From: Trichobilharzia szidati
Taxonomy: Eukaryota; Platyhelminthes; Trematoda; Strigeidida; Schistosomatidae
Direction of reading: 5' to 3'
DNA: 64,000 nt
Assembly: GCA_944472155.2 (NCBI GenBank)
Contig: OX235277.1
Location: 21,586,804 to 21,650,803 of the forward strand
The position numbers were made by a program, and so were the translations under genes. This document shows, one piece after another, positions 36,445-62,835 of this stretch (position 1 is the first letter of the stretch; every line of letters begins with the position of its first letter). Below the pieces are notes generated by a model. The model ran no database searches, was not told the DNA's origin, and saw only the letters and a list, made by a program, of their open reading frames with translations.

Positions 36445-36511
36445 ATGAAAGTTATACTGAGCCTGATTTTCTGCTTGTTCATCATGGTGATTCACATTGG
36501 AGGTAACTCAG
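36445..36511 (+). CDS. MEG exon 1: signal peptide
   Basis: ATG followed by MKVILSLIFCLFIMVIHI, a lysine then ~16 hydrophobic residues, then GGNS and the first base of a split codon. This is a textbook secretory signal peptide. The reading frame ends at a strong donor, G|GTAAGT (36512). The exon has 67 coding nt, giving phase 1, which matches the phase in which the downstream micro-exons are open. The ATG context is AGTTATGA, and no other in-frame ATG precedes it closely. The mature product would begin near GGNS. It is too short to stand alone as a gene. Confidence 0.75.
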
Positions 36512-37361
36512 GTAAGTTTTGATGTTTTCTGTATTAATTTCTGATTACATGAACAATTTTTTGTACAAATATTCATCTTAATACCTATATCTATTTCATG
36601 AATGAACCCATCGGCGTAAAGAATTCCCCTGTCACTGGTATTTACATGCAAGATTTTCGTATTATGAAAGGTCATGGTGCAATACAATCACGATTCATGA
36701 AAAACACATGAGTAAACTGGCAGAAACACTTAAAAGTGCAGATTACAATAAATGTTATAAATGAAGTGCCAAATGAAGTGCGTGTTTAAGCATCAACTCT
36801 CGCTCAAAGTATAATGATATTTCAAATCCACACAATATATTTCGTCGGAAAATTTAGACAATAATTTGAGTTTGTGTGCTTTAACATTTCAACCTCATCT
36901 AACATTTAAAGGGACAGAAGATCAGTCTCTTTATTCATGGGTGCTCATTAAGGGTTAATCAGTCACAATTTTACTCAAATTCCATTGTCACGGACGATGA
37001 AGTGTGGTAAATGTGGAAGGCATTTTGTTGCATATATCGTCAAAAACGATTCTGTCGTCAACTAAAGTTAACTAAGATTATTTATGTTTTCATTGTTATC
37101 AGTATAATAGTCCCATTAATGTATTGGAAATACAACTTTAAGAAGTATTTGGATAAAGTGGTTTCACAGTATTTCAGTGCGTTTCGAATTCTTCAGTAAC
37201 ACCATGTTTACTCTCACTATTGTTTCTCGAAGATCCGTTATATGATTAATGTGACTAAGTCACATTGACTCATGTACATCATACTGTGAGCTATAAGAAC
37301 ACATCGTTATTATAACATCATCATTTGATGGGTACAAATATTTTTTATGAACCCTATCCAG

Positions 37362-37376
37362 GCAATAAAGAGCAAG
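37362..37376 (+). CDS. MEG micro-exon, 15 nt (NKEQ)
   Basis: CCCTATCCAG | 15 nt | GTATTTTATG. Joined in phase 1 to exon 1 it reads G-N-K-E-Q and ends with G, so it preserves phase 1. The donor is slightly weak (GTATTT). Confidence 0.6.
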
Positions 37377-38699
37377 GTATTTTATGTTCTTCAATTTACA
37401 CTGAGAGTTTTGATTTGGTTGATGCGAAATTACCTAAAGCTTATTTTTCTGCGGATCATTACTAAGAAACTGCGTGAATCGATGTCAGTGTTGCTTATGA
37501 TTAACTGAAACGGCAATGACTATATTAGGAATGTCCATCATGATCGTTATTGTTTTAGGACACATCAGGTTGAAGTGATGAGTATTTGGGCGGTGATGGG
37601 TTGTCATTCAATGCTTTAACTCAACTTTGAGGAATTCCGGACCACTTAGTTTGTAGTTAAACTATAAAATCTGCCAGTAAAAAACTGTAGCATTCGTGAC
37701 AATACCATTAAGAATTGTATCCTAATGTTATAAATCCCCAGTAGTTCCAATCGACTTAAAACTAGTCAAATCATTTCTTACTATTTTTAGGAACTATGAC
37801 ATTTCATCATATATTGAAAGAAGTCAAAATATGGTTGTCACATAAGAAGTCCTAGTGCACTTTGTAAGAATTATCCATTTCTGACATTCCCAGAAATATG
37901 TTTATACTGTTGTCCTAATGAAGTGAGCAGTCAAACTCGAGAATTACAAACCACTACCTCCTGAATCAGTCTTTTATGTTTCAAGTAATCATCCTTTACA
38001 GTGGGCTCTTTAATAACACCTTTTGTGGCCTCTTTTCAAATCCTGCTACTTGTCGTTCACATTGTGAATGTGTGGTAGGATTTTCTTTCCTTGTGAATCT
38101 TCACTTGGGTCTATTTATAAACCTTAATCCAAGTAATATCGATCCGATCCTATGAGTAACTCATATGGAAAAATTAATACCATCAATATAGTCCGTTGTA
38201 ATAACAGAAAATCATGAGGATGAATGAAAAATTACTTGCAGTTTGTCTTGACGTATTAACAAAAAATCAAGAAGGAAAAGTCCTTTGACCAAGCATACAC
38301 GCGCTTTAACTTAACGCGTCCAGTTAATCTTCAATAATGAGTGGCGAATAAATCTGAGATAAAACCGTTAAACTAACAAGAAGTTTCGAAGTTTTATCAG
38401 TCAGACGTATTTTTATCGGTGCTGAAACCAATATTGCCTTGTGTATACACCTTGAGTGCACACGCTTCATCCAATCTCCGAACCAATAAAATGCGCAGAA
38501 GTTAGCAAAGTCCTCCATTCTCATAGATTTCGTCGAGAGCCTTCCAACTAATAATGCATCGTTTCCCTGAATTATCAAGCCTCAGTTAAGTACCCATATC
38601 ATCTATAAGAATTTTGATCGTGGCATAAGGAATGTTTTTCATTAATGTTAGCAGCTGTCTAAATAAATCCTATTGAAGTTTTAGTTTGTAGCGATTTGA

Positions 38700-38880
38700 A
38701 TCATTGGTTACCGAATTTCATCATGAGCCAACATTGGTTAAAAAACAATTGGAAAACATCGGAGTACTGGACAGCTGTTTCGCCATAGTTTAAGACTCTC
38801 CATCACTACGCATCCACAAGGTTTGGAACCCAGGACCTTCTGTTTACAATGCAAGCCATTTAGCCAATTCCCTTAAAGAC
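38700..38880 (-). mobile_element. degenerate hammerhead SINE (relative of the 402-bp unit)
   Basis: Minus strand: A box TGGCTAAATGG (38866-38856), TGTAAACAGAAGGTCCTGGG, a damaged B box GGTTCCAAACC (38830-38820), then a hammerhead region and CCAGTACTCC. Order and sequence match the 402-bp unit at 59 kb, so it is an old dispersed copy of the same family. Confidence 0.75.
38764..38809 (-). ncRNA. decayed hammerhead ribozyme
   Basis: Aligns base for base (46 nt) with the 59-kb ribozymes. CGAAACAGCTGTCCAGTAC is intact. The first core half is ATGGAGA instead of CTGAAGA (C3 and A6 changed), stem I has one mismatch and stem II is weakened. It is probably inactive. Confidence 0.7.
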
Positions 38881-39476
38881 TATAGGGGACAGCTGACAAA
38901 GTATTTAAATATTTCGAAGGCCCAAATCAATTCGGAATATTTGCATAGGTTCCTAACTCTTTTTAGCGACACTAACAGCCCTCTTATGCATATGTTTATA
39001 TAGTGCTAAAAGTCCACACCGTCTTCAGTGTGTTTGCTTCCATGGAAAGAAGTATTATCGGTATGACTGGCGTCCCAAAAGATTTTAGTTTCCCAAAACA
39101 TAAAGTCTCTCCAAACTGAAAGGGAAATTGGTTTGATCGTTATAATTTCCTTGTGCTGTGAATTTTCTGTAAATGATAGGTTGTCGTTTTGGCAATCCCG
39201 ACGCCCTCTCTGGCTGGAATTTATACTGACTACCGAAGTGTATGAAGGTTATTAACAACAGTAATTATGTTGATATTACCACGTGAATGTATTGAAATAC
39301 GTCCAAGTGATAATTCGAGGATATTAGGTGCATTCCGACTGCACAGAAATCGCTATTTTGCTTTGCTCACTGCAAGCAAACGCCTAGTACATCAGTGATA
39401 TCCCACCAATGCAAGACATCTTCGCCGATCGTCTGACGTCGAATAATTGTGTAGTGAGATTAATTATTGGAAATGG

Positions 39477-39900
39477 TTTCGAACAGAGTGTCATCATGGT
39501 CGTTTTAGAAATGTAAAATAGTTTTCAAGTAAAATATAACTGGCTGAACTGATGCTTCATCAAATAAGGCATTACGAATTCCTTCTACTGAAACTGTTCC
39601 TAATTTTCGTCTGAGGCAGTGTCATTTCAGCTATGAAAATGATCTACTTATCCTAAATGAGGAGAGATAGTTCACCAATTTCAAAATCTAGATGTATTTA
39701 ACATATAACATTCATTCTCACTTATTGCGGCAATACAAATCTTAGACTTTCTTCAAGCCATTATTCGCAGTGAAAAAGGGAAACATTTCTGACCATTTCT
39801 CGCTACGAATTTTTTCTTTATTCTTCATGTTTTTTATATACTTTCATCATAATTGCTGATTTTATCCTGGTGACAGTATAAGAGAAGTATCTGCATGGTG
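39477..39900 (+). repeat. intronic block copy carrying a decayed micro-exon
   Basis: Aligns by eye with the start of the 42.1-kb segment: TTTTCAAGTAAAATAT, GAAAATGAT, ATGAGGAGA, then CTTAGACTTTCTTCAAG against CTTAGTCTTCCCTTGAAG. It holds the exon relic at 39657-39665. Confidence 0.6.
39657..39665 (+). pseudogene. decayed micro-exon (ATGAGGAGA)
   Basis: Same 9-nt exon as 42318 and nearly the same as 40179, but the acceptor reads AA instead of AG and the donor GA instead of GT. Both sites are lost, so it should not be spliced in. Confidence 0.6.
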
Positions 39901-40178
39901 GGTTAAACATTAGTCAATAATGCCTAAAGAACTTCGTAGTTCCACAAGATATTCTGTCTCATTTCCATAAACAAAATTGAATGACATTCAGATTGTGTCT
40001 TCACAGTTTGAAGTGGTGTTATTAAATACAGTTTCCTACACAGTGTAGTGTGAAAATAAAATAGTGATAGCGAGGTGTAGCTCCACAAAATACAAACGGT
40101 AAAAATTCACTTTATTTTAAATGTTCTTTATTTTCTTCCGAAGTAATATAATTAATCACAATGATCTTCTTATACTAG

Positions 40179-40187
40179 ATGAGAAGA
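40179..40187 (+). CDS. MEG micro-exon, 9 nt (DEK)
   Basis: ATCTTCTTATACTAG | ATGAGAAGA | GTAAGTCC. In phase 1 with a preceding G it reads D-E-K and ends in A. Good acceptor tract and consensus donor. Paralogues are at 39657, 42318 and 51305. Confidence 0.65.
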
Positions 40188-40526
40188 GTAAGTCCAGTGG
40201 TTTGAATGCCTAGAGGTATATTAACGTATTTTATACTTTCATAATCATTTTGGAAATGAGACTCCTAGTCTATCCTGAACACATTATTTGAGAAGATAAG
40301 TAAAAACACACAATTATTTACAACTGTATATTCTATTTTTTAGGTTTTATTCCCCCTATCAACACATCATCGAATTTCTCCTTATCAACAGAATAGGCGA
40401 CTTATTAGTTTGGTGTTTTTTCATCAGTAGATAATGGACATGGAGCATGAAAGTTTTGACAGATATTCTGTTCCTTTGATGTAATCAGAAGTAAAGCCAT
40501 TCAGGTGGTGTCTTTCTACTTTACAG

Positions 40527-40538: not shown

Positions 40539-42317
40539 GTGAAGCTGCTTACATTACATTGTGTGGATAAAAATAGCTAGGGATCCTTTAAATGCAGAAA
40601 CTTAGTTAAGCGCAGTATTAAATTTTGAATAAAATTACGAAGCAGTCTGCATATTAATTGATCGACCACCACATGTCTTCGGAGAATTCTGTTTGCTACC
40701 ATAGTAGCAGTATAGCCTGAAGCGAAATCACTTGTATTGTACCATAACTAATGTAAGGTCAAGGAGAATTGATCAAAGTGAATGAGCGAAGCGTTAACTA
40801 AATATATGACTCAACCGCATGTGGATGCTGAAGGTGTTTTAAGTTTAATGTTAACGAAGACGCATCTGACGAAGTGAGTAGGCCATTTAAGGCTTCTGTT
40901 TCCCGCTGATTGCACACATTCACTTCGTCGAAGTTAGTAGGTCGGCCACACAAAGCTGATTACTACCAAACTTTATTCTCAGAATTTTCCGAGTATTTTA
41001 TCCTAGGTAAATAGGGCGTCCATGAGAATAGACTTGAACTCAACCGCTCTTTTCATTGATGTTTTAATTTTCCTTCTCAGCTGTCATTATGTGTTCTGTT
41101 TATTGTATAGATTTGAATTATTTTTGCATCACTCGATGTATTATTCAGCTTCTCATGATGGAAACGCTGGCACTTATTCTGTACTCAATATAACCACGTG
41201 TTAGTATTTGAACTTGTGAAATTATATGTTTGCATGTATACTACACTGTTATCAATATAAGGATGGTTTTAATTGTTTCACGTTGCATTTTGTCCCAATA
41301 CATTTCTTACGCAAAACGAGATAATAGTGGGACAATCTACTACTCAGGATGAGAGGCACATTTAAATAATCTGATTAACGATGAGTGTGTGGGTAAAATG
41401 TCCATACAATTAGCGATAGAGGGGGAAATATCAACCACCAACTTGCGACTAGATAATTTAATAATAAGAGGTTGGAAAACCGAGACCACAATGAACACCT
41501 AGATCACAGCATAATATTGATAATACAGTTAGCAACGCAAATGAAATAAAATATGACAAGATAGTATTTACAGTTGTCCAGTGTTACCAGGAGAGATAAC
41601 TATTTTGAGTTGGTGGCAAAGGCTAAGGTGCACACGGAAACTCAGCAGATAAACATCATCACGACTGCTTCCCAATGCTTTTGCCTCCCGCCCTTCAGTC
41701 ATAAAGGTTTATAGTAAATCATTTTTCATGCCAAAAAAGCTAATGCATTACAGTCTGAATGACCTGGCTAGATTACTGACATTTCAGTACACAATTCAGA
41801 GAGTTCCCTCTCATTCCATTGTCTCTCACAGAGTCCTGGCATTTCTGTGCCATTTCATTTGATTTTTTCATGCCCAAGCCTCTTTCTCTTCTCGGAGTTA
41901 AGTCTTTATTAACAGTAGTTAGTACGGTGACAACAACCGAGTTAATAGTATTGAAATATGTATCAGTTATTGTTTGAAGAAATTAGCTCATTTTTCAATA
42001 CACACAACTGATTATTAAGTGTCTTACACCTGCGTCAATCCAGCAGAATATCAATAGTATTTTTGCGACTCAAGTCAGTCTCTGAGATTGTCTCACCGCG
42101 AAGTAATTTTATTGTTAAGTTATATCAGTGGAATTGGTGTTGAAAACAGCATCAACATCGTCCTTAAGGTAATGTAAACTAGTTTTCAGGTAAAATATTA
42201 ATGACTGAAACTCAGCTACCTTATATACAACCAGAAAAATTCATTTCAGTAAACACGCTCCCGATTTTCAATCAAAATTGAGTAACCGGAGTATTGAAAA
42301 TGATATACCCACACTGA

Positions 42318-42326
42318 ATGAGGAGA
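42318..42326 (+). pseudogene. micro-exon with broken acceptor (DEE)
   Basis: ATACCCACACTGA | ATGAGGAGA | GTTAGT. The donor survives but the acceptor is GA. It occupies the same position in segment I as the intact exon at 51305 in segment II. Confidence 0.55.
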
Positions 42327-43010
42327 GTTAGTGCACAGACTTAAAAATATGGACGTTTATAGGCATATCTCATCATTTCTCACACATAATGGTAGAGTGA
42401 CTCTTAGTCTTCCCTTGAAGCGTATTCTGCAGACAAAGATGAATATTTGTCAACATTATTCGTTGACAGATATTTAACATTACAACCAAAGATAACACAA
42501 TATCCATAGGTTGTTGGGGTGGCATTTTCACACAGACAAAACTTTTTTTCATAAAAGAACACTGATTGGTTGAAAACAAAGGTTCTCAACATACATATTT
42601 TTCCATAATAGGCTAAGTATGTCTGTGCTCAAAAGTATACTGACATGATACATGCAGCCATGTTTCATAAATGGAAATCTGGCGTCCACTGTCTATGTTT
42701 ATAGATTAATCCTTTTGTGATATAACTTTGTTTGCATTTATGAAGAAAATATAAATGCAGCTTATTCACAGAGGTTAGACATCTAGCTGATGATGATAGA
42801 TATGCTGTCGGTCAGCGTTTGAAAGGCCATTTTCTCGAAATCGTTTTGTGTATGTTAAGTGCACACCCATTGACGGTCAGTAAATCGAATCAATCTTCAA
42901 GGAATCTTATATTAAAAATCGGTGAAATGGACTGTTTCAATGATAAAATTTGATAACCTGTCTCTTTTTCTCATAAGTAGAATTTTGACGATATGCATGA
43001 TCAAGGAGAG

Positions 43011-43046
43011 AACCGAACACTTCAGTACCCGAACTTCTTCAGGGTC
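43011..43046 (-). ncRNA. PLE-type hammerhead relic
   Basis: Minus strand: GACC / CTGAAGA / AGTTCGGGTACT (AGT-ACT stem II) / GAAG / TGTTC / GGTT. CUGANGA is intact and stem I pairs, but the last A of GAAA is G, so it is likely inactive. It marks PLE terminal sequence inserted in segment I. Confidence 0.5.
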
Positions 43047-44120
43047 TGTTTATTCGATAAGACACCAGGTGATGGTGTACAGAATGAAAGACTACGTTGT
43101 TTTTTATATCAAAACGCTAACGTTTTCTAGAAACGCTGTCTGACGCTTTTTCTGACACTTCATTTGAGACAAAAGTTCTAGTTATTCGTTGGAGACTCAG
43201 GCAATGTAGTAAAATGAATAGACTTTCATGGTGGATTCAGTGGAGTTTAATGTTTTCAACAGGAACGGAATATAAGTTTTTGATGACTTCCAATCAAGTA
43301 TCACTCTTGTGACATTTGTTGGTAAATGACAACAGACTATGCAATTTGAAATGATAGTAATAATTTGCTTTATTCCAAAGAGTATTGGTGTCGGGTTGTG
43401 AAATTTCAGCACCTGGTACAATATTGCATCTAATTTTATCGAATAACATTATTAACAGTTATACAGATCACATTACTGGATTGTTAATTGTTGTTCTTAC
43501 AAGGACTGAATGGCTAATAATTTCATCCGTCCATCCGAATGTACATATTTCGTACATCCAAGAAACACTGAGTCAGATGTTCAGTCACTTTATCAGAATC
43601 TTTTAGCACTTATGACATTTCTACTATAGATTCGAAGTAATATTAAGAATCATATCTCAGTTGCTCATGGACAACTCATGTACCATCACAAAGTCGAAAT
43701 TCGTATTCATTTTTAGGTCTCGACGAGTAATACTTCCAAAAGTTGAAATGTTCAAAAGTGTATGTGATGTCACAGTGTCTGTCTATTGAGATATATTTAC
43801 ATAGACTCAATATTTCAACTATGAGGATATTGGCGAATAATATCTGTATACGGTGATTGTTTCGACATAACAACAATAACAGTAGTTGCTCCATTCTGAG
43901 CTGTGTTTATATTCTGAACAGAATTTTCATCGGAAATTATTGAATAATAGTTTCGTTTCGTCGAGCACCTTCAAGCGAAATAGAAGAGGTAAAATCGTGA
44001 ATTAAGGAAAGAAATAACGATGTATTCTGTAGTGCTATGAAGTAACCGAAATTATTATCTTTAGATTGAATACTAGTAATTTCGTACATACAATTTTATT
44101 TTCATACCGACAAACTTTAG

Positions 44121-44129
44121 TGTGTAAAG
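44121..44129 (+). CDS. MEG micro-exon, 9 nt (VCK)
   Basis: CAAACTTTAG | TGTGTAAAG | GTGAGC. Phase 1 reading is V-C-K with final G. Its paralogue at 52406 reads G-C-K with the same splice signals, and both are followed about 480 nt later by another paired exon. Confidence 0.7.
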
Positions 44130-44601
44130 GTGAGCATGATAAACGGTTCTGAATTTACAACTTAATCATATACTGATTTTCAAATGTTGGTCCCAGCATG
44201 AATCTATACGATCCATGGATAAGTCAGGTTTAAGAAGCCACAATTATTCATTCGTGCTGTTCCACCAGAATCGAGGACTTGTTCGTGAAATGGTCTTCTG
44301 TCTAAAGTTTCAATGAAACCATATCCTAAACTGTGATGTTAAGTCACTTTGTGGTGTATCCATTCAAGAGAATTTCGTAATTCAGCCTATCGTGTATACC
44401 TGTTGCCTATATTCAGCTGTTCACATTGAAATTATATACAAGACAGAATGAAGATAAATACGCCCAAACCATGTCACAGATAACTACCACAACTACGCCA
44501 AAGTAAAAGTCACATAAATTCAGCAGCATGAGTTAGAGGATGCCCCTCCCTTGATGTATAAAGCGTAATGTAACTCAATGAGATATTTTGTGTTTACGCA
44601 G

Positions 44602-44610
44602 AAGCAGTAG
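44602..44610 (+). CDS. MEG micro-exon, 9 nt (EAV)
   Basis: GTGTTTACGCAG | AAGCAGTAG | GTAAGT. In phase 1 it reads E-A-V (in frame 0 it would be a stop, which supports phase 1). Paralogue at 52891. The motif AGAAGCA.T.GGTAAGT is conserved in both. Confidence 0.72.
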   Translation, partial: KQ

Positions 44611-45784
44611 GTAAGTTGAAATGGAAACCGTACGACAACGATTTCTTTTCACAGTTTCAATAAACATGGTCATTCCAACTATGATTACGCAGACCTAATG
44701 ACCTTGTGATAAGAAGTCCTTGATTTACTGTGAGAAATCAGTTATGCTTTTACCAGTATCATAATCGATTCATGTATCATAGATGATAATATCTTTAATG
44801 TATCCTCTTAACATCCTTTAAACGGCACTTTTCAATTTCTAATTCATTTATGAATTCATCAATGGATCAAAACTCATTTGGATTTCATTATTATAAGCAA
44901 ATCATCGGAGAGTTAAATAGTCTGTGGAGTGATCAAACATATCTTCAGCAACAAAGAAGATTTGTGGCCTAATCGGATAACCTTTTTGGTTTCACTGCCT
45001 TCTGCGCTTTCATATCATATCAGTTCAACGGGTAGATAATTACTGTTGATTTCTTTGATTAAATCGCAATAGCTAATCCAATTGATCGATTAAAGCACAT
45101 GTTCAGTTACGTATAATATATGAGAAACACAGGATCAATCTTAACCACAGTAATACATTGTACATGAAACAATGAAATATTATGTGCAAACCTCAAATGT
45201 TGAGGTGCCTGTGGCTTGAGTATATGAAATGCACAGTTACTTTGTGTCAATATGAGAAAACAAAATAAACAACGTTCGACAGACAATGGTACAGAGTCGA
45301 TCGCAAGTGAAATAGTAATAGTATAACTAAGCAAAGACTTAACACAGATTTTATTCACATATGGACATGAATATTGGTAGCTAAGTGGAAACTCAGAATA
45401 TACTGAAAAATGCAGATGAAATCGTGGATGTTTGTGAAAATTTATTTTATCCTCAAGTATTTAAAAAAAATGAGGATGACATTAACATTCAAAGCAAAAT
45501 TTTGATGATCTCCATTCTGCCACTTTGGATATGATCTTCAACACAAAGAATATTCGTCACATGTGATAATGCATCATTGGTGATGCGACCTGTCTCAGTT
45601 CTGTACAACTCGTTACTCATACCAATCACCTCATTAGTCAAGTGTTACTTGAAAGTATTCCCCACGTAAATGTTGTTAAATATTAGGAACACCCAACTTC
45701 ACTTTACACATGGTTTCGTATGAAGGCCATGAATTTCTTCGAATTTGTCTTTCATGATATTTATTATAACGGTCTTATTTTTAG

Positions 45785-45793
45785 AGCAAGCAA
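45785..45793 (+). CDS. MEG micro-exon, 9 nt (EQA)
   Basis: GGTCTTATTTTTAG | AGCAAGCAA | GTAAGGAG. Phase 1: E-Q-A, ends A. Paralogue at 53706. Strong acceptor and donor. Confidence 0.68.
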
Positions 45794-46328
45794 GTAAGGA
45801 GGACTGTGGAATAAGAACTTCATTTTAAATTCCATCCATTAACACAGTAAAATGTTTTATCATATGAAAAAATTCTTTTCTACTTATTTGTTCTCGAATG
45901 TTGCTGGAAATTTAGTTACCCTTTCAAGGTACCCTCCGCAACTTAGGCAGAGTTAGACATATTTAACTGGACCGTAAAATTCCAAATGTTGTAAACGGAA
46001 CTGTGTAAAACTACTGATTACCCAAAAATTGAGAGTGGATCAGATATTTCGCATAAACAGAACATTGTTTCCAAAGTCAGTACAGTTCCAAGTAAATTAA
46101 GTCATATACGCCATCAGTAGTCTTCACTTTGATGACTGAACTTTTCGATCGGAACAGAAATGAAACTAAGAAGTTCCACTAATCATATCTTATGAAATAC
46201 ATAGTATAAGAATAATTGTAAGGTTGAAAATTAATAGATATAAATTTTCGATATAGAAAAAAGCTACATTTGTAGTATAAAATGATATCATTCTATTTCA
46301 CATGTTCTCATCATAGGTTCTGATGGTT

Positions 46329-47060
46329 CTAAAAGGTTCTTTAGAAACTATTCTAGCCGACATTGTTTTCGGTTATCTCCAACAGACGTGACTAAGTGAC
46401 GCAATCAATGAAACCACACACTATCGTCGACATATCGACGATGTGTTTGTTGTTTGTAAAGACATGAGTGAGGTATCCTTATAATCTAACTGCCTTCTCG
46501 AGATCCATCCAAATACTTTGTTCAACATGGAATTCGAATGCAACGACGAGTCCATTTTCCCTGACCTAAAGAAAACAAGAAGAAAAAAACGATAGAACGT
46601 TTGAATAATCCATCTACAGAAAAGAAACCTGGACTGGACAATACCTTCACTACAAAAGCGTCTGCACGATAATCTGTACGCGGAGATTAATAAGGACATT
46701 ACACAACACAGCCAAGAAGCTTTGTTCGCCAAACAATTTGAAGGGAGAATTAGGTTTCTTTGCGAAATGCTTAGGAGAAAATGGATACCAAAAGGGATTT
46801 CCACAAAAGTGTAGGAGAGAAAAGGTGAGAAATAAAAATTCCCAGTTGTAGAAAAGAAGAATGTGTTTATTTATCTCCTATTCAAAGAGGATGCACTGCC
46901 ACAAAAGACTGACAAAATAATGAAAGGTGCAGCTAAATTCATATCATTATACATCCCTATTTCTTCTATAAGCCAGTCAAAACTGGATAAATACCCTGCT
47001 GATATCATCTTCAAACGGGTTTACGAAATTACGTGCACTAGCGGGAGCGAGGACATTGAA
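46329..47060 (+). pseudogene. decayed Penelope-like RT fragment
   Basis: Plus-strand translation across several frames gives LETILADIVFGYLQQT, then YRRHIDDVFVVC (the palm motif with I in place of M, both aspartates kept), a FNMEFE block, TWTGQY-like remnants and KGFPQK. FIYLLFKEDALPQKTDKIMKGAAK matches the stretch PLYIRLQFMGDIPSEIITKKL of the PLE at 1.2-1.9 kb. It has several stops and frameshifts and no GIY-YIG was recognised. It is an old insertion in a MEG intron just after segment I. Confidence 0.75.
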
Positions 47061-47429
47061 AGGAGAGAAAGAATAGTTTCTATCCGGTTTTCTGAGCGTA
47101 TTCCATGAGACCTGTGCCTGAAATGAAGTAGATATTCCCAGAGTACAATTACCAGACATAATTTTGATAATGGTCATTTCGTAGGCATTCCTAAGTTCTT
47201 CAAAATATTGAATAGACAAAGGACGGCAAATTTACGACGATTTGTCGAAGCGATCACAGTCGAACGATTCAAACCAGACTTATGCATACGGAAATAGGAT
47301 GTGATTATTATCTCACTCCCTTGGTAGCTGAATTTTGATTTTGATTACAGTAATTAGTCATCTAGTTTGGTGATCTTAACTCCTTGAGCAAATCTCAATC
47401 TTTTAAACTGTCATGGATTTTGAATTGGT

Positions 47430-47605
47430 GGATGATGACTAGCAGTGGAATCCGGGAAGCGCATTTTGTCCTATCTGGGACTCGTCATCTGGATGTACCT
47501 GCATTCTCCAGTGGGTGTTGATGTTCCAACCGAGTTTCGAACCCATTGTCTACAGTTCTAAACGTCAATGGGTTATCCACTAGAGCACTCAGGTCACGGT
47601 AGCCA
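47430..47605 (-). mobile_element. Sm-alpha-like SINE with decayed hammerhead
   Basis: Minus strand: A box TGCTCTAGTGG (47587-47577), B-box-like GGGTTCGAAAC (47544-47534), GTTGGAACATCAACACCCAC, the hammerhead region, then GATTCCACTGCTAGTCATC. The order tRNA head, hammerhead, CCACTGCTAG end is that of the schistosome Sm-alpha family. Confidence 0.8.
47450..47494 (-). ncRNA. decayed Sm-alpha hammerhead ribozyme
   Basis: ATCCAG / ATGACGA / GTCC-CAGATA-GGAC / AAAA / TGCGCT / TC / CCGGAT. Stems I and II survive, but C3 of CUGANGA is A and the G of GAAA (the general-base guanine, G12) is A, so no cleavage is expected. Confidence 0.75.
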
Positions 47606-48156: not shown

Positions 48157-48165
48157 CGAAAGAGG
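48157..48165 (+). CDS. candidate MEG micro-exon, 9 nt (AKE)
   Basis: TTGTCCTCACAACTTTAG | CGAAAGAGG | GTGAGA. Phase 1: A-K-E, ends G. Good acceptor and donor. Single copy. Confidence 0.5.
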
Positions 48166-48750: not shown

Positions 48751-48759
48751 CGAGAAACG
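48751..48759 (+). CDS. candidate MEG micro-exon, 9 nt (ARN)
   Basis: TTTTGGGTTTGAAG | CGAGAAACG | GTATGTTC. Phase 1: A-R-N, ends G. The acceptor tract is interrupted by Gs, so support is weaker. Confidence 0.35.
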
Positions 48760-51099: not shown

Positions 51100-51304
51100 A
51101 ATAGTTTCACGTTCGAGTGATTAGGCTATCTGTTTATATCACAGATTGTAAGGAATATCGCTATGGTCCTTCGAATTATTGTAAAGTGAATTTAAAATAA
51201 AATATTAATAACAGGAAGGACAAATGTGGGTTTCTTTTAAAATTCTCTTAATTTGATACTTCAAATGGCTTATCAAATTACCGAAAATGGTATTTTCATC
51301 TTAG

Positions 51305-51313
51305 ATGAAACGC
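51305..51313 (+). CDS. MEG micro-exon, 9 nt (DET)
   Basis: GGTATTTTCATCTTAG | ATGAAACGC | GTAAGTG. Phase 1: D-E-T, ends C. Intact counterpart of the damaged exons at 39657 and 42318. Confidence 0.68.
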
Positions 51314-51706
51314 GTAAGTGAACCTATTTCCATATCTGAAATTTCACGGACATATTTTACCGTTTCAAACAAATTAGGGAAATGTGATTTCTAGCCCTCC
51401 ACCAAAGCGTTGATTGAGTGGAAACTAACAGATTTGCAACTATTTTCGCCACCAGGTACTCTATTTTGAAAGTATAGGCAACTCAGTCAGACATAAACTG
51501 TGGTCAGATGTAACTTTCTCTGCGTTACTGGAGACTTTTATAAAAGCTTAATTCACAAATGTTAGACATTGAGTTGATGGTCAGTATGATTTTGATGTTT
51601 TCGTAATCTCTTTCTCCGTGTTAATCAATCATTAACTGGAGATTATTAAATCTAGTCAATCTCCAAGCTATCTTTTGTCTGATTTGATGAAAAAGACTAT
51701 TTTTAG

Positions 51707-51724
51707 GCCAAAACTTACTCACCT
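51707..51724 (+). CDS. candidate MEG micro-exon, 18 nt (GQNLLT)
   Basis: AGACTATTTTTAG | 18 nt | GTGAGG. Phase 1: G-Q-N-L-L-T, ends T. Strong acceptor, good donor. No counterpart was found in segment I. Confidence 0.42.
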
Positions 51725-52405
51725 GTGAGGCAATTAAACTCGTGGATTCTTATTATCGCAAATGCACATTTGTGAAGATATGCAGGACTTAAGAACGAAT
51801 GAAACAACTTATTATCTGAAATTCATCGAATTCTGTTCATTTGATGCAACGCAGAGCGATGAATTCACTTTCTCCCTGTCGATCATATTACACGATTTCT
51901 CACGCACTATTGACGACAGAATTTCAACCTATCCATTGAAGACTAAGTTAATGCAGTAGAAATGAGTAGGCTTCATTGTTGAGTTCAAGACAAAGGGAAT
52001 AAACACTTCCGATGACTGTGTGTTACGCCTCGCACTTGCAGAAATGACTCCAGACTATGCATTTGAAGAGGTTTTGTTTATTATTATTTCATTTTACTCA
52101 GTGGTACTTGCAAGAAACACTAAATCATATATTCAGTTAGCATATTCAGAATTTGTTTCACTGCTGGTATTTCTACAACAGATTAGTACATGTAGGAAAG
52201 TCCATGCAATGTTATTTCACTCTGAGTATCGTGAGTTATACTTACGCAAACTCAATATGGATAGTGAAGATGTAGATAAGGATGGTCGAAATCTGTGTAT
52301 ATTCATCTGTAGGAAATTAAACCGTCCTCTGAAGTTTGATTATGTTTATTAAATTGCATACTAATAACTTTTATACATATATTTCTTCGTACTACTTGAT
52401 TTCAG

Positions 52406-52414
52406 GTTGTAAAC
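52406..52414 (+). CDS. MEG micro-exon, 9 nt (GCK)
   Basis: CTACTTGATTTCAG | GTTGTAAAC | GTGAGC. Phase 1: G-C-K, ends C. Pairs with 44121. The conserved C-K suggests selection on the peptide. Confidence 0.7.
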
Positions 52415-52890
52415 GTGAGCACAACAAACAGTGCTGAATTATTAACCTGATCATTGATTGAGTGATTGTTAAATTACGACATGGGATTGAATTGACATCA
52501 CTTGGAGACCAAACGATAATTATCACGTCAAGATATGTATAGTAGCGGCGTTCGAAATGGATTGGCAAATGAATTCGTGAAAACATCTTCCGTCTCTAAT
52601 TTCTGTGAAACTATATCTAAAACCGTATTGTGCGGTCAATTTCTGGTTAATATTGCAATTCTCATCGAGATTCATCCGTAAGAATTTCGTAATTCAAACT
52701 TCTGTCGGCCTGTTTTGCCTATACTAGACAAGCAATTCACTGATAGCTACCATAGCATGAAAAGCATCAGAGTTAAAGTCAAATGAAATTAAATTGAGAC
52801 GGTTTTCTAGGTAAAGTAGTTGCCAACTAATTTAATTTATAAAGTATAATGTAACGCATATAAGATAAATTCGTATATTGTGCTTTGCAG

Positions 52891-52899
52891 AAGCACTGG
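52891..52899 (+). CDS. MEG micro-exon, 9 nt (EAL)
   Basis: TTGTGCTTTGCAG | AAGCACTGG | GTAAGT. Phase 1: E-A-L. Pairs with 44602. It lies 485 nt from the preceding exon, against 481 nt in segment I. Confidence 0.72.
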
Positions 52900-53705
52900 G
52901 TAAGTCGAAATATGAATTATATGATGGAAAATGGTTGTGCCACAGTTTCAGTTAAATTCTCCATATGTACCATGCTTGCCTAATAATTAGAACCTTGTGG
53001 TCAGAAAACTTTGAAACCGATACATTTCATGATAGAATCTAGCGTTTTCAGTCCTTCATTAACATTTTCAAATCTATTATTATGTCAGATTATAAGTTCA
53101 GTTTATCCTTTTACTATCCTTGAAACGACACTTCCAAATCGCCTATTAACCCATACATTCGCCAACGGATCGAAACTCAGAAGAATTTGAATAATATCAG
53201 AAAATCATATGATACGTAAACAGACGACAGAAAAGCTAAATTAATCTGCAGTATTAGGGAAGATTCGTGGATTAATTCAAATACTTCTTTGATTCCAGTG
53301 CGTTCTGTACTGTAGATTTCCTATTACAAATTCGAAGCAGTTATTCGATCAAATAATTAAAACACTCGTTGAGATAGGCCTAATGATTAAAACACATAAC
53401 TTGTTTAAACTACTGTACAATATGATAAATGAAATAATGAAATATAATATACAGACCTCACGTTTCTAGGTGTGAGCAAAATAAGCACTCGTCACGTTAA
53501 GCGATGTAATAACGGCGACAATAACGCAACAAATCACTCTTACCAGTCCACTCAATCGTCAAGAGTTTCCTAGAATTATTCTTACAAAATGTCTATTAAA
53601 ATACCCAAGCTATTCGCTGACACCAAAATCGTGACCTATGCATGGACAACAGTAATGTGTTTGAATTTCTCTTCCATGTCTTATGATGAATACCGCCACG
53701 TTTAG

Positions 53706-53714
53706 AAGCTTTGG
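53706..53714 (+). CDS. MEG micro-exon, 9 nt (EAL)
   Basis: GCCACGTTTAG | AAGCTTTGG | GTAAGG. Phase 1: E-A-L, ends G. Pairs with 45785. Confidence 0.68.
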
Positions 53715-55180
53715 GTAAGGAGAATAGTGACATTTAAACTAAGCAACATTTCATTTCAAATTATATTCACAATGAGAGTGGAATGTATATCATGTATGAG
53801 AGATGCTAATTTCTAATTCATTAGGAAATTTAATCACTACCCTGATTCATGTTCTGTTAGCCAAATCACAATTGAAATTATTCACCTATTCATGAAGACG
53901 TTTTCAAAATTCTTAATAATATCAATGGTTCCCAATGGTTCCCTGTGCATCAGATATTTCGCATAGCGAAAACTCTGTTTCAAAGGAACATGTATTTATT
54001 CGTTGATAATCGCGAACCAGACATTGGTGAAAACAAATACATACTTCAGCGAAGAGGCTGCTACCGGCGAATTCACTTCTCTTAGCTGTACAGTCAGGTT
54101 TATGTACCGGTTTTGTTGCGGAAAATTATATTATAAAAGGGATGAGTTGTCAAATAGTCAATGCACTGAATGGATTCGATGAATGTGTCAGAGTTACAGA
54201 ATAAGGTGAATAATTTATTGAATGAGTTGTAATCAGGTTTCAAATTGAAACTGAGGAAAATATGGAAATACTTAAATATTTAAAATATTGACATAATTTC
54301 ATATTTTACTTTATGTCAATGTACATCCTGAATACAGGTCATTCGTTAAATTTTTCATCTTACCACATAACTCGAATACACTTATTCAACTCCTCTGACT
54401 AATACTAACAACTGTGTTTGTGACGACTCACTTTTTAACAACTATCATTTATGAGAAAAATTGTATATCGATGAAATGAGTTATTTTATATCAGTTTCCA
54501 CTTGGCTTTGCTTTATTGCTCAGTCCAAGTTGACTTCCGCAGATAAATAGAACTGAAAAAATAGCTGTATACAGATGTGTGAAGTTAAGGAGATCAATTT
54601 CTTTGCAAAGCTAAACATTATTAATTAAATTTTAACGCAATACACCATCTCTGTAGGCAAATGAAAGCAATATATATACATATTCTTTACAAACGCATCC
54701 GTACTGTAACAATAGAACGCTGGAGACAAATGACAAATTATATATTATATTATATATTGATTAAACCGCCATTTATTTAAATATACATATATAGTTTTAT
54801 ATTCTTCGAAGAATCACTGAGCATGTGATTTTGGTTTACACCAAACGACATGAAATAGAAGGTTCTAATATATACAAATGTATATATATTATTCTGTTGC
54901 TAATGGAGTAATGAATTATGTGAATATGTGAGAACGGTATTCCATTTGATCACATTCCTATGTATCACATCGGCACAGGGTGATAGTCAGTGACTTGAAA
55001 ATGCAAGTAAACTGAAAAATATAGCGCAAGATTTAAATGCGTGACTGTTTGATGGTTTGATTAGCTGAATTTGCAATGAGAATAAAGTCTGAAATGGAAG
55101 CCCGCATGTCATCGTTTTCAAAGTAGATATGTCATCTTCTAATATGCGTAGTCTATATCTCTTATTATATCACTTTGAAG

Positions 55181-55292: not shown

Positions 55293-56213
55293 ATTTAATT
55301 TTGAGTAAGTCTCACAGTATTATACCGTATTAATTACTGATGACGTTCCGAGCACAGTCTATTGCTCATAATCATATCAAGGTACTCACACAACTTTCCA
55401 ACTTCGTTTATATAGTTCCATTATTTTCCGTCGGTTAATTTGATTGGTAGTAGTATTTCCCATATTTCTGGTATGAGTGATGAGTCATTCCTACCGCACA
55501 AGTTGGGTGTAGACTCTATGAGAAAGGATTCGGTAATCGACCTCTGTCCATCTATTTATATTACTTCTTAGAATTTCAACACTCTCCCACCCTATTTTGT
55601 GGTTGTGTGTTAATGCATGCAGTGCAATCATTAGGCTTTTTACGAATGCTAGTAGAATATTTTGTACTATTAAAATACATAAGCCGGGATACACCATACG
55701 ACCAATAGTAGATTTCAGGAATACCACTACTTATGAGTCAACAAAACACTTAACGCCAATATTATGAAATAAAGTGTAGTGATATTTCAGTGGTTTACAC
55801 ACAATGATAAATTTTATTATTAAGAGAGGAAGCTTGATCCCGTGGAGATAAATCATTTAGAAAGAGAAACTTAGCTGAGGCACTGCATGCATTAACACAC
55901 AACCACAAAATAGGGTGGGAGAGTGTTGAAATTCTAAGAAGTAATATAAATAGATGGACAGAGGTCGATTACCGAATCCTTTCTCATAGAGTCTACACCC
56001 AACTTGTGCGGTAGGAATGACTCATCACTCATACCAGAAATATGGGAAATACTACTACCAATCAAATTAACCGACGGAAAATAATGGAACTATATAAACG
56101 AAGTTGGAAAGTTGTGTGAGTACCTTGATATGATTATGAGCAATAGACTGTGCTCGGAACGTCATCAGTAATTAATACGGTATAATACTGTGAGACTTAC
56201 TCAAAATAAAATC
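55293..56213. mobile_element. fold-back element with ~333-bp inverted arms
   Basis: The left arm (55293-55625) and right arm (55880-56213) are nearly perfect inverted repeats around a 254-bp centre with no coding content recognised. A hammerhead-shaped motif lies near the outer edge of each arm (minus 55380-55337, plus 56125-56168), as in the 17.5-18.6 kb element, but the core is non-canonical. It is probably another PLE-type derivative. No target duplication was identified. Confidence 0.7.
56125..56168 (+). other. hammerhead-shaped motif in fold-back arm
   Basis: TTGAT/ATCAG stem I, ATGATTA in place of CUGANGA, GAGCA...TGCTC stem II, GGAACGTC in place of GAAACGTC. Mirrored at 55337-55380 (minus). 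The shape is kept, but core residues are wrong for known catalysis. Confidence 0.4.
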
Positions 56214-57074: not shown

Positions 57075-57086
57075 TTAAGGAAGAGA
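57075..57086 (+). CDS. candidate MEG micro-exon, 12 nt (VKEE)
   Basis: GGTTATCTTTTCCAG | TTAAGGAAGAGA | GTGAGTTT. Phase 1: V-K-E-E, ends A. Both splice sites are near consensus, making this one of the best single-copy candidates. Confidence 0.55.
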
Positions 57087-57682: not shown

Positions 57683-57691
57683 GTGATCAAG
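57683..57691 (+). CDS. candidate MEG micro-exon, 9 nt (GDQ)
   Basis: TTTCGTTGTTTGATTGAATTAG | GTGATCAAG | GTATGT. Phase 1: G-D-Q, ends G. Confidence 0.5.
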
Positions 57692-58659: not shown

Positions 58660-58668
58660 AGGAATTTC
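58660..58668 (+). CDS. candidate MEG micro-exon, 9 nt (EEF)
   Basis: CGTTTGTATCACTTCAG | AGGAATTTC | GTAAGTC. Phase 1: E-E-F, ends C. Similar strings without proper splice sites or length occur at 44369 and 52683 in the two duplicated segments, which look like decayed relatives. Confidence 0.5.
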
Positions 58669-58895
58669 GTAAGTCAAATTACAATATTTTGAAGCCTAAT
58701 ATCTGATATATATGTAAACATTTGGAAGCAAATACAAGTATGCTGACAGCTTCACACCAAGTATTCTCACATTTTACCAGTTAGATGTGCATCCATTCTT
58801 AAAGTGATATCGACGTTTAAGAAATATTTGAACTGCAATACTATTGTAACAACAGAAAAGATAGATAGGTCCTGGGTTCGAATCCCGTTGGGCGC

Positions 58896-58941
58896 GTACT
58901 GCTGAAGAGTCCCAAACTAGGACGAAACAGCTGTCCAGTAC
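58896..58941 (+). ncRNA. hammerhead ribozyme, unit 1
   Basis: GTACTG (stem I) / CTGAAGA / GTCC-CAAACTA-GGAC (stem II) / GAA / ACAGCTGT (self-complementary stem III) / C, then CAGTAC closing stem I with six pairs. All invariant core bases of the type I hammerhead are present. The variable position 7 is A. Predicted cleavage is after C58935. The loopless stem III suggests the dimeric form is the active one. Confidence 0.88.
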
Positions 58942-59224
58942 TCCCAGCTGGTTTTCCAGTGGTTCTCTAACTGAAGTCAGCTCATGATGAAACCCTCCAT
59001 GCAATCAAACCAAATCCCTACAAAACCAATACTTGCAAATTAATCTGATGCTCACTAGTGACTGGCCCTATTCAGGCAGTTAACCTGGGGTTCTAGTGGG
59101 AAGCCGTGACCAGTAGGGTACAGCAGGTCGAAGATGAGGACAGTTACTCACGAAGAAGACATTGCGAAATGGTCGCGCTATGTCGTGGATTGGCAGAAGT
59201 TAGAATTCAAGGACCATTGGATCG

Positions 59225-59290
59225 GGTCCCAGTGGCTCAATGGTCTACGAGCTCGCCTCGTAACCAGAAGGTCCTGGGTTCGAATCCCGT
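59225..59290 (+). promoter_or_regulatory. tRNA-like Pol III promoter, unit 2
   Basis: A box TGGCTCAATGG (59233-59243) and perfect B box GGTTCGAATCC (59277-59287), 33 nt apart. The loop CTCGTAA carries a CGT anticodon, and the arms resemble tRNA-Thr(CGT), but the anticodon stem no longer pairs. It is thus a tRNA-derived promoter, not a functional tRNA. Confidence 0.82.
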
Positions 59291-59297
59291 TGGGCGC

Positions 59298-59343
59298 GTA
59301 CTGCTGAAGAGTCCCAAACTAGGACGAAACAGCTGTCCAGTAC
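59298..59343 (+). ncRNA. hammerhead ribozyme, unit 2
   Basis: Same sequence as unit 1, exactly 402 nt downstream. Predicted cleavage after 59337. Cleavage at units 1 and 2 of one transcript would release a 402-nt monomer. Confidence 0.88.
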
Positions 59344-59626
59344 TCCCAGCTGGTTTTCCAGTGGTTCTCTAACTGAAGTCAGCTCATGATGAAACCCTCC
59401 ATGCAATCAAACCAAATCCCTACAAAACCAATACTTGCAAATTAATCTGATGCTCACTAGTGACTGGCCCTATTCAGGCAGTTAACCTGGGGTTCTAGTG
59501 GGAAGCCGTGACCAGTAGGGTACAGCAGGTCGAAGATGAGGACAGTTACTCACGAAGAAGACATTGCGAAATGGTCGCGCTATGTCGTGGATTGGCAGAA
59601 GTTAGAATTCAAGGACCATTGGATCG

Positions 59627-59692
59627 GGTCCCAGTGGCTCAATGGTCTACGAGCTCGCCTCGTAACCAGAAGGTCCTGGGTTCGAATCCCGT
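59627..59692 (+). promoter_or_regulatory. tRNA-like Pol III promoter, unit 3
   Basis: Identical boxes, 402 nt on: A box 59635-59645, B box 59679-59689. Unit 1 keeps only the B box (58875-58885), because the array starts inside the tRNA-like region. Confidence 0.82.
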
Positions 59693-59699
59693 TGGGCGC

Positions 59700-59745
59700 G
59701 TACTGCTGAAGAGTCCCAAACTAGGACGAAACAGCTGTCCAGTAC
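59700..59745 (+). ncRNA. hammerhead ribozyme, unit 3
   Basis: Same sequence, 402 nt after unit 2. The ribozyme is complete although the third unit is truncated about 96 nt later. Predicted cleavage after 59739. Confidence 0.88.
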
Positions 59746-60253
59746 TCCCAGCTGGTTTTCCAGTGGTTCTCTAACTGAAGTCAGCTCATGATGAAACCCT
59801 CCATGCAATCAAACCAAATCCCTACAAAACCAATACTTGCAGATATTTTTATCTCACATTAGAGAAAAATATCCTGTTTAACGTTTTTCATGCTTTTTTA
59901 TGTAAATATACGTAAACTTTTATGCAAAAATCATCTCTTTTCTGACTGGTCGGCTCAAGGTCACTTGTGCGTTCGCATTGCTTGGGACTCTATTGTTGAT
60001 CTTTCCCTATAGCTGAATCAAATCAGGCGGGAAGAGACGTCAGTAGTTCGCCAGTCTGAATTAATGCGCAGCAGTCTTGCCGTCAAACAGTTTTAGTCCT
60101 ATGATATTTATTTCGATAATCAACTGTTAATTTTGATACTTCCCGATTGAAATCTCTTTAAATTTTTAACTTATTCAAATGCATTATACTTACGTTAACG
60201 GCAATAAAGTCACGAGTACCATCAGATGCACGTTTTATATTTTCATATTTTAG

Positions 60254-60262
60254 GAAGATTGT
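60254..60262 (+). CDS. candidate MEG micro-exon, 9 nt (GRL)
   Basis: ATATTTTCATATTTTAG | GAAGATTGT | GTGAGTAC. Phase 1: G-R-L, ends T. Excellent acceptor tract and consensus donor. Confidence 0.52.
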
Positions 60263-60316: not shown

Positions 60317-60556
60317 TTGAATAAAGCATTTAGAACACAAATTTCGTCGGATAATATCATCTCGTATTTTCATTGACAGCGCATTACAACAAACATGGTT
60401 CACAATTATGAAATAAAATGCATGACAATTACTCAGTTAAATAAGACAACAGTGTATACTGATGACCAATCAAATTTAAATAGGTGAAGTTATCCATGGT
60501 AGGCGAAGGTTGAAGGCTATTGTGTTTTGTACACATGATTTAGGATGTATTTGATC
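60317..60556 (+). repeat. left inverted PLE terminal repeat
   Basis: Pairs with 61326-61569. Very similar from the ACAACAAACATGG block to GGCGAAGGTT, and more diverged at both ends. Confidence 0.8.
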
Positions 60557-60924
60557 AGTTCATTGTGTTACTCTCCTTCATCAAAATTTACGAGTGACTT
60601 CCTAATTTGAATCGAACGATAAACTCTGTTTCTTGGATTTTCCAATGGCCAGGAGAGACAATAGAACGAATAAGTTATCCTTATTTCGTACGCAGACATG
60701 CAGTAGACACTATCTTCATTTCACTAGTTTTGTTCCTATCCAGTATAAAAGTCTTACAGTAAAATATTTGTTTTCTAGTGCCTGCAAAAAATATGAATGA
60801 GCAATACATTCATGAACTAGCTTCGACATACATATTCAGTTTTGGTAGCTAATGTTTATTGAAAAAAAACTTTATCAATTATCAATTGTCACATTGAGAA
60901 TAGACCACATATTGAAAAGACAGC

Positions 60925-61315
60925 CTCTGAACAGAAGAAAGCTCTCTTTATTAACCTACCCTTCAAAGACGACCAGATTATGCAGTTGACATCTCAAAGA
61001 CTTCGGTCAGTCATCAGATGCATCTCTTTCTCTCACAAACGACTAAAGTAAATCATTCCGTGGACTCTACTTCAAACTGCATCTACAAGTTCACCTACAA
61101 TTGCGATGACACCTATATGGGTAGAACCAAAAGAATGTTTCAATGTGGTGGAAAAGAACGTGTTCCATAATGGTTATTAAAACACAGAAAATCTCAATGA
61201 AATTAATCTGAATAGAAATCCATCATCATTCATCGCAAAGCACCTATCAATGTTAGGTCACAAAATCAATAATTATGACACAATAACTGTAATTCAATAT
61301 TATCAAAGGTGATGG
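60925..61315 (+). pseudogene. decayed PLE connector and GIY-YIG endonuclease
   Basis: In shifting frames: KALFINLPFKDDQIMQLTSQRL (matches the RT-EN connector of the 1.2-kb PLE), then STSNCIYKFTYNCDDTYMGRT (C-I-Y ... Y-M-G, the nuclease signature), then SSFIAKHLSMLGHKINNYDT, matching the PLE C-terminus. Stops and frameshifts interrupt it. Confidence 0.78.
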
Positions 61316-61325
61316 AAGCACGGCG

Positions 61326-61569
61326 GATCAATCACATACATGCTAAATTATGTTTACCAAACATAATAGCTTTTAACCTTCGCCTACCATGGATACCTTC
61401 ACCTATTTAAATTTGATTGGTCATCAGTATACACTGTTGTCTTATTTAACTGAGTAATTATCATGCATTTTATTTCATCATTGTGAACCATGTTTGTTGT
61501 GAAGTACTTGTAATTTAACTACGAGATGGTATCATCTCACGAAATTAGTCTTCTAAATCGTTTATTCAA
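61326..61569 (-). repeat. right inverted PLE terminal repeat
   Basis: Reverse complement of 60317-60556. It contains a GAGATGGTATCATCTCACGAAA stretch that recalls a hammerhead with a damaged first core half. Confidence 0.8.
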
Positions 61570-62820
61570 GTGTGAAAGCCTTTTTATAAACAGATCGAAG
61601 TTAACGTGTCAAATGATGTTTCAAACTAATAATACAGAACATGCTAGATTAAACTGAATCATTTTTCTAAACACAACTAGAGTCATTCATCATTATTATT
61701 ACTGGCAATGAAGCCATGAAATTTTCCAAATTGTTTTTGAAAGTTACACTGGAGCAGAAATTCACATGAAGCGAAGTTTGTTTCCAATGATCCGAGTGAT
61801 GTCAACTAAGTATTCAAATATGACCGCCTTTCAATGGTTACACTTTGACGTTCGGGCCATTCTCTTTTGTGAATTTGGCGTGTTTGTGCGAAACCTCATA
61901 CACTGACTCTCAATTTTCAAATTGGCGCTTATTAAAAATAAACCAGAATTGAATCCAAACAAATCACATTGATGATTCGGAAGAGTGTTGTATAACTGAA
62001 CCATAAAATATTGTTTCCTAAACTTTACAAAGCTCAAATAAGAATGTTGACCGCTGGCTTATCCTGAGTGTCGGTCTTACAATAAGCACGTCAAAAGAGG
62101 ATGATTTCATCAGAATACACTCTGAACTTCATTGCTGTTTCATATATAAATATATAAACTACAAAAACATCTGAACAAAATTATTTTATAGATTATTGTT
62201 TTTCCCATTTATTTTTCCAATGAGGGAAATGTACTTTGATTTTGCAAACAAGTAAATTCCGCCGTTTTGGACATTGTAGTGCGAAAACGTGAGATAATTT
62301 GCTTCATCGTTTGTTCTAACTTCAGTAATATAAAATGTATTTCTGTATTTGTTTCATAAGATATAAGAGAACCATCTTATGACTATGAGATAGTGATAAT
62401 GTTTCCCATCTATAAATAAATTATGCACATTTCACCGAAATTCTGCCTAGACTGAGTAGAAACATTGATTGAGATATTCATTTTAAAGGTCGATGTCAGT
62501 GTACATTGACACAATTCACAACTTATGGGTGTTAAGCATATTAAAAAAGAGAATTGGACGGAAGGTCTTCTCCTCAGCGCTTTTTGGCCACTTTCATCTA
62601 TTTTACAAAAAGTAGCAAAGTCATTTATTTAAAGAATAATTATTGATGCACTTGATTAGTTTTGTTTAGTGACACTGAGTACACTGAATACAAAGACATA
62701 TATATAAAGAGAGAGAGAGATGTGTATACAATAAGGAATAACATTATAATTAATAAATTGATTTTCACAAAACTTCGAATCCGTTACACTTGCCTAACTG
62801 TGACTTTTACGAATATTCTT
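61570..62820. other. AT-rich DNA, no gene recognised
   Basis: Only short frames. A (GA)n run lies at about 62708-62720. Confidence 0.4.
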
Positions 62821-62829
62821 TTTCAATAG

Positions 62830-62835
62830 ATCCAA
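62830..62835 (+). CDS. candidate MEG micro-exon, 6 nt (DP)
   Basis: TTACGAATATTCTTTTTCAATAG | ATCCAA | GTGAGTCA. Phase 1: D-P, ends A. Very good acceptor tract and donor around only six nucleotides. Confidence 0.48.

Follow-up and report, generated by a model that had tools for sequence, protein, structure and literature searches.

Can a gene be recognized in genomic DNA that looks non-coding when nearly all of its exons are only a few bases long? The question is raised by a 64,000-nucleotide (nt) stretch of Trichobilharzia szidati DNA (assembly GCA_944472155.2, contig OX235277.1, called C7 here; C7:21586804-21650803; the whole stretch is referred to below as the window), in which an original prediction, made from the letters alone, had placed a signal-peptide exon at position 36445 followed by a string of micro-exons on the plus strand. 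Combining splice-site statistics in the window with comparison of related copies in the 1.114-Gb assembly (907 contigs), we conclude from the DNA, with a probability of roughly 0.9, that the locus is a real and very long micro-exon gene (MEG) for a small secreted protein, in a clustered family with at least 26 copies of its first exon. The family goes beyond what had been predicted, which concerned a single gene rather than one of a large set (26 exon-1 places).

The coding part of exon 1 (36445–36511, plus strand, 67 nt) starts with an ATG at 36445, encodes MKVILSLIFCLFIMVIHIGGNS with a hydrophobic N-terminus, and ends in phase 1 after 36511 at a perfect donor, CAG/GTAAGT. Among the 13 ATG-to-donor starts on both strands of the window that have a donor score of at least 9, a length of 45–120 nt and no stop, it ranks first in hydrophobicity. 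The signal peptide that marks the MEG class is thus present in the sense of hydrophobicity alone (signal-peptide-like), and the predicted signal-peptide exon ending in phase 1 holds as it was drawn.

Downstream of exon 1, the evidence lies in the spacing of candidate acceptors and donors. On the plus strand from 36512 to 64000, AG and GT enclose exactly 9 nt in 17, 12 and 8 cassettes at three score cut-offs, while 400 simulated sequences gave means of 3.06, 1.15 and 0.47 and maxima of 9, 6 and 4, with top counts for any single length of 12, 7 and 5. The excess is confined to the 9-nt class on the plus strand downstream of exon 1. A regular expression free of any matrix, [CT]AG-9-GT[AG][AT]G, matches 15 times downstream of exon 1, where other lengths average 2.0; its 9-nt matches in the control strands number 1 on the opposite strand and 1 and 6 on the two strands of the left part; over the plus strand of the whole window, one match lies at 4520 and the remainder exclusively from 40179 to 62280. 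Phase 1 is free of stops in 16 of the 17 nine-nt candidates, the exception, 56779, having been dropped for its phase-1 stop and weak donor, and charged residues are enriched in phase 1 of these candidates (P 0.0023).

The 73-mer containing exon 1 recurs in at least 26 places of the genome at 85–100 % identity. Twenty-five of these lie on C7 between 19.60 and 23.55 Mb (about 4 Mb), with 17 in plus and 8 in minus orientation; 8 of the 24 gaps between neighbours measure 90–100 kb; a lone copy outside the cluster is found at C3:29002178-29002250 (minus strand, 90 % identity). Three of the 26 copies were compared over their whole length: the locus itself (A), the next copy downstream (B, exon 1 at C7:21719043, 95.8 kb from exon 1 of A) and a third (D, exon 1 at C7:20704955, 60 kb compared). 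Exons 1 and 2 were compared in the 8 best-matching of the 26, the locus itself included. A and B are collinear over 66,021 alignment columns (86.5 %).

Conservation in these paralogs singles out the same length class. AG, GT and length are kept in B for 28 of 34 mapped 9-nt candidates, against 190 of 378 at other lengths, and inside the gene span for 25 of 30 against 67 of 149. Acceptor, donor and length are kept in 31 of the 33 exons after exon 1 both in B (lost: 50549 and 53706) and in D (lost: 50273 and 50549), so that the three copies share 29 live micro-exons and a live 27-nt exon. When all three copies were scanned for intervals of 3–75 nt divisible by three, with sites kept, phase 1 open and a score of at least 8 in each copy, 35 were returned: 29 in the model and six others, the latter all with a lowest score below 11; above 11, only listed exons remained. 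At the scan's looser cut-off, B and D both preserved 27 of 41 nine-nt intervals; for lengths not divisible by three the figure was 191 of 660. The six others (42816, 60 nt; 58353, 70917 and 76953, 18 nt; 78910, 3 nt; 84012, 45 nt; lowest scores 8.1–10.2) were omitted because chance alone preserves the sites in B for 26 of 52 candidates whose length is another multiple of three; 42816 in particular may be a further exon.

The window holds 20 predicted micro-exons, all on the plus strand, 16 of them of 9 nt and the others of 6, 6, 12 and 15 nt. Splice sites and length are kept for 19 of the 20 in at least one of the two paralogs (the exception being 50549) and for 17 in both. The second exon (37362–37376, 15 nt, GNKEQ) is kept in B and D and in all 8 of the best-matching exon-1 loci. 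Four 9-nt exons follow that each pair with a later 9-nt exon through the internal duplication described below: 40179–40187 (DEK) with 51305–51313 (YET), 44121–44129 (MCK) with 52406–52414 (RCK), 44602–44610 (EAV) with 52891–52899 (QAL), and 45785–45793 (EQA) with 53706–53714 (EAL). All eight are kept in B and D except 53706, which is kept in D and has lost its acceptor in B. Between the two sets lie four more 9-nt exons and one of 6 nt: 48157–48165 (TKE), kept in B and D; 48751–48759 (ARN), whose sites are kept around a body only 2/9 identical in B; 50273–50281 (ELL), kept in B, its donor lost in D; 50549–50557 (LRK), the least certain of all, with a usable donor in its own copy only and kept in neither B nor D; and 50970–50975 (6 nt, HH), kept in both. 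The remainder, kept in B and D throughout, are 57075–57086 (12 nt, VKEE), the 9-nt exons 57683–57691 (SDQ), 58660–58668 (EEF), 60254–60262 (RRL) and 62280–62288 (LRK), and the window's last, 62830–62835 (6 nt, HP), past which the gene runs on.

In continued coordinates, which carry the window numbering on downstream past position 64000, alignment with copy B adds 12 plus-strand micro-exons at 65772, 68139, 68424, 72094, 74208, 75202, 75873, 76889, 77583, 80138, 80712 and 80970. They are followed on the same strand by the 27-nt exon at 83850, kept in A, B and D, and by a terminal exon at 84674, again placed by alignment with B, that carries the C-terminus and the stop. The resulting model has 35 exons over 48 kb: exon 1, 32 micro-exons of 6–15 nt (27 of 9 nt), the 27-nt exon and the terminal exon. 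The 32 micro-exons and the 27-nt exon are all multiples of three in one phase, the symmetry that characterizes MEGs. All 35 exons of A join into an open product of 135 residues with no internal stop, consisting of MKVILSLIFCLFIMVIHIGGNS, the window cassettes in coordinate order from GNKEQ to HP, then KDF FDR SP VRY EYR KDF DKM NEK ETF KGF LKE FKE, and the tail SIITLPDGK QITCRNDP; in copy D the stop comes one residue earlier. Most of the original prediction survives in this model. Its phase-1-open array with good splice signals is borne out, since 16 of the 17 nine-nt candidates are open and the sites are kept in paralogs, and a same-phase array after a signal-peptide-like exon supports its claim of a gene unseen by open-reading-frame finding. 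It rightly called most micro-exons 9 nt long (16/20), undercounted them at about 15 where the window has 20, and ended the gene at 62835, some 21.9 kb short of the terminal stop exon.

Searches with the product brought little. Neither product A nor product B matched a Pfam domain above cut-off (the best match, E 0.0052, fell short of its own), a PDB search with the window part of product A gave nothing meaningful (best E 0.19), and the hydrophobic moment of that part, examined for an amphipathic helix, was not above shuffles (P 0.30). Peptide strings of the product were unmatched in a literature text search, which says little.

Part of the array carries the trace of an old internal direct duplication. 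On the plus strand, an exon block at 42062–46074 is collinear with a second at 51076–53984 at 53–62 % identity in four segments, and additional copied sequence lies at 39249–40339. Every candidate above the cut-off was checked for AG and GT in its aligned internal copy, pairs being tested in both orientations: both sites were present in 8 of 12 oriented tests of 9-nt candidates and in 1 of 9 at other lengths, that one nested inside a 9-nt exon, and in 0 of 2 on the minus strand. All four 9-nt failures trace to two decayed plus-strand copies of the exon now live at 40179 and 51305, namely 39657–39665 (acceptor and donor gone) and 42318–42326 (acceptor gone). Across the four live pairs, donor hexamers agree at 24/24 bases against 900/1542 (58.4 %) in the surroundings, a figure flattered because the pairs were selected for good sites; the exon bodies, identical at 20/36 positions, are less affected.

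Several candidates were discarded here. A 26-nt interval at 43043 was dropped, its splice sites being absent from the internal copy, and a third copy of the module after 62280 was rejected, DNA similarity being absent and the downstream exons different. Homology between the latter halves of the two modules was not retained, their DNA pairs being no better than off-diagonal pairs; the module alignment as such was reached by 0/5000 shuffles in A, 36/5000 in D and 427/5000 in B. A pentapeptide common to three exons (1/5198 stop-free simulations, 35/20000 order shuffles) was set aside because it includes exon 50549, which is live in neither B nor D.

What distinguishes the exons from their surroundings is that their edges are conserved and their interiors are not. 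Identity of exon bodies against flanking introns is 0.724 versus 0.846 between A and B (P 1e-6), 0.720 versus 0.862 between A and D (P 4e-9), and 0.793 versus 0.860 between B and D (P 0.004), while donor hexamers are 96.6–97.7 % identical among the three against 84.6–86.2 % for the flanks. Random intron windows of matched lengths near the same exons average 84.0 % between A and B, and the observed divergence was reached in 0/5000 sets; chance AG..GT intervals with conserved sites (n=54) have an identity of 0.864. The ends of the gene follow another course: A and B share 65/67 positions of exon 1, 25/27 of the 27-nt exon and 24/24 of the terminal coding part, and the last two are also conserved in D, with a proportion of nonsynonymous differences (pN) of 0.03–0.08. 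As read from genomic DNA, then, the cassette residues evolve more quickly than the introns around them, whereas the predicted splice sites, the exon lengths and the C-terminal tail stay conserved, a pattern that suggests diversifying selection. Exchange between copies that evens out the introns, or a mutational cause, may instead be responsible, because synonymous changes too exceed the intron rate: the micro-exons have pN of 0.20–0.28 and a proportion of synonymous differences (pS) of 0.23–0.34, against an intron divergence of 0.14–0.15.

A number of results weigh against the gene as modelled or against selection on it. The splice matrices behind the AG..GT scores were generic and self-written, untrained on the source organism; the all-length total of candidates, 105 against a simulated 94.8, is not above chance; and phase-1 openness by itself falls short of significance (P 0.28). 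Of the three copies, A alone offers exon 50549 a usable donor; 50273 fails in D and 53706 in B. Of the 210 pairwise joins that the 21 exons of the window allow, 8 create a stop, and a full join of the live exons of copy B contains one stop-forming junction, where the last T of an exon precedes the AA that opens the next, so that B must omit one of its exons, if it is used at all. A pS above the introns and close to pN is not a clean signal of nonsynonymous over synonymous rates (dN>dS), and the signal-peptide exon of D, with pN of 0.16–0.17, is at or above intron divergence. One of these results, the unremarkable all-length total, would suit the idea that the cassettes reflect accidental AG..GT spacing and selection by eye, as would a bias towards lengths divisible by three that the original prediction itself admitted. 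We give this idea almost no credence, since the excess is limited to 9 nt, one strand and one part of the window, and sites and length are kept in paralogs far above other lengths; refuted for the whole set, it may still apply to individual weak exons, 50549 for example. Others would suit a decaying family in which A is a pseudogene persisting through duplication alone: the two decayed copies of one exon, the exons lost in B or D, and pN close to pS. That all 35 exons of A nevertheless join in frame and stop-free, that donors far exceed their flanks in identity, and that the 27-nt exon and the terminal coding part are identical at 49/51 positions between A and B makes this improbable.

The remaining alternative accepts the gene and places it in an unrelated class of micro-exon effectors, for example the bicycle genes of aphids and their relatives. 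Exons of bicycle genes are generally larger than 9 nt, a size difference that speaks against this assignment, and the repeat content around the locus, described below, would fit flatworms at least as well. Bicycle genes nonetheless share much with the locus, being secreted, with many small internal exons that start at codon position 2, fast divergence and a large family (PMC9168663). Type I hammerhead elements like those found here extend over many invertebrate phyla including insects (PMC7229834). Reading the predicted products by eye showed no CYC motif of bicycle genes, C-Y-C being absent; this is not decisive because homologues without CYC are described (PMC9168663). On balance we consider membership in such a class unlikely.

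Returning to a micro-exon gene for a small secreted protein, the signal-peptide exon would be joined to a run of 32 micro-exons, then to the 27-nt exon and finally to the terminal stop exon. Each internal boundary separates the first base of a codon from the other two, which means that any exon could be omitted without a frame shift; the residue encoded across a new junction would also change on skipping, its codon taking base one from whichever exon lies upstream. We infer transcription, exon skipping, secretion and a host-facing role from this architecture, in which skipping would yield a pool of proteins differing by three-residue cassettes, and the array itself would have grown by internal duplication of exon blocks together with duplication of the whole locus. 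A broader picture, to which we give slightly less than even odds, is that of a single 4-Mb cluster in which some 25 paralogous MEGs each string three-residue cassettes together, all in one phase, over about 48 kb; selection would hold sites and length and favour residue change, and one small secreted protein would come in a very large number of variants through splicing within each copy combined with divergence among copies.

For a 35-exon gene made mostly of three-residue exons, strong support can thus be obtained from genomic DNA alone by way of tandem paralogs, and the pairing of a length-specific excess of AG..GT spacings with paralog conservation offers a search recipe for others. Exon bodies that outpace their own introns between fixed splice sites would make the idea of antigen-like variation in micro-exon genes directly testable, and the cluster, should transcripts bear it out, would lend itself well to studying array growth and the death of single exons.

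The gene is set among repeats and mobile elements. Three 402-nt tandem repeats at 58867–59970 each contain a type I hammerhead ribozyme (54.1 bits), a fourth such ribozyme lies on the minus strand at 47450–47494 (45.6 bits), and 38676–38856 is a diverged, inverted relative of the 402-nt repeat; elements of this type occur across many phyla (PMC7229834). Upstream of the gene, a retrotransposon without long terminal repeats spans three overlapping open reading frames at 5756–8941 (reverse transcriptase, RVT_1 8e-35, DUF6451 3e-15, with endonuclease matches below Pfam cut-offs). Fragments at 1205–1990 (minus strand) and about 46300–47300 (plus strand) resemble Penelope-type reverse transcriptase, a label given by reading; the first of the two has a weak RVT_1 match (0.0097). 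Long inverted repeats at 55293–56212 (arm identity 99.7 %), 17487–18576 (97.7 %) and 60317–61569 (87.9 %) are probably foldback elements, the last of them sitting in the intron after micro-exon 60254. Past the gene end, a local duplication shows at 98999–105503 in continued coordinates, where part of the downstream unit has two alignments to a single part of copy B.

Among known systems, SmVAL6 resembles the locus in its run of very small symmetric exons, which are alternatively spliced in SmVAL6 (PMC4350168, PMC4015677); ahead of that run SmVAL6 has ordinary exons with conserved family motifs, of which none were seen in the locus. The closer likeness is to the MEGs of schistosomes and tapeworms, to which the original prediction had assigned the gene, as a member of the schistosome class of secreted variable proteins. 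On structure, that assignment is supported. The architecture agrees, in that these genes too have a signal-peptide exon followed by many symmetric exons of a few bases, long introns, a variable middle, and transposable elements in and around them (published architecture in PMC10526429, PMC4350168, PMC8293314, PMC5825161 and PMC7653826). The motif described after the signal peptide of Schistosoma mansoni MEGs, which begins F-L-two hydrophobic-F-x6-W, or its red-clade variant (PMC10526429), was not found by eye in product A, which has no W. The structural definition of a MEG in PMC7653826 asks for at least seven exons, of which at least half are micro-exons (shorter than 70 nt, length a multiple of three), with a run of at least four; in the predicted model, 33 of 35 exons are shorter than 70 nt and divisible by three, in a single run of 33. 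Repeated patterns of exon length, as in the locus, are described for MEG-26.2 and MEG-26.4 (PMC5825161), and a duplicated 9-bp exon near an SM-alpha element, which the locus also recalls, for MEG-3.1 (PMC8293314). The genome, at 1.11 Gb, is about three times as large as that of S. mansoni. Scale sets the locus apart: S. mansoni MEGs are stated to have mostly 15-bp exons and 10–20 exons (PMC10526429), whereas the locus has mostly 9-nt exons and about 35 of them, and, unlike described MEGs, it belongs to a family with at least 26 copies of exon 1, 25 of them in one 4-Mb stretch.

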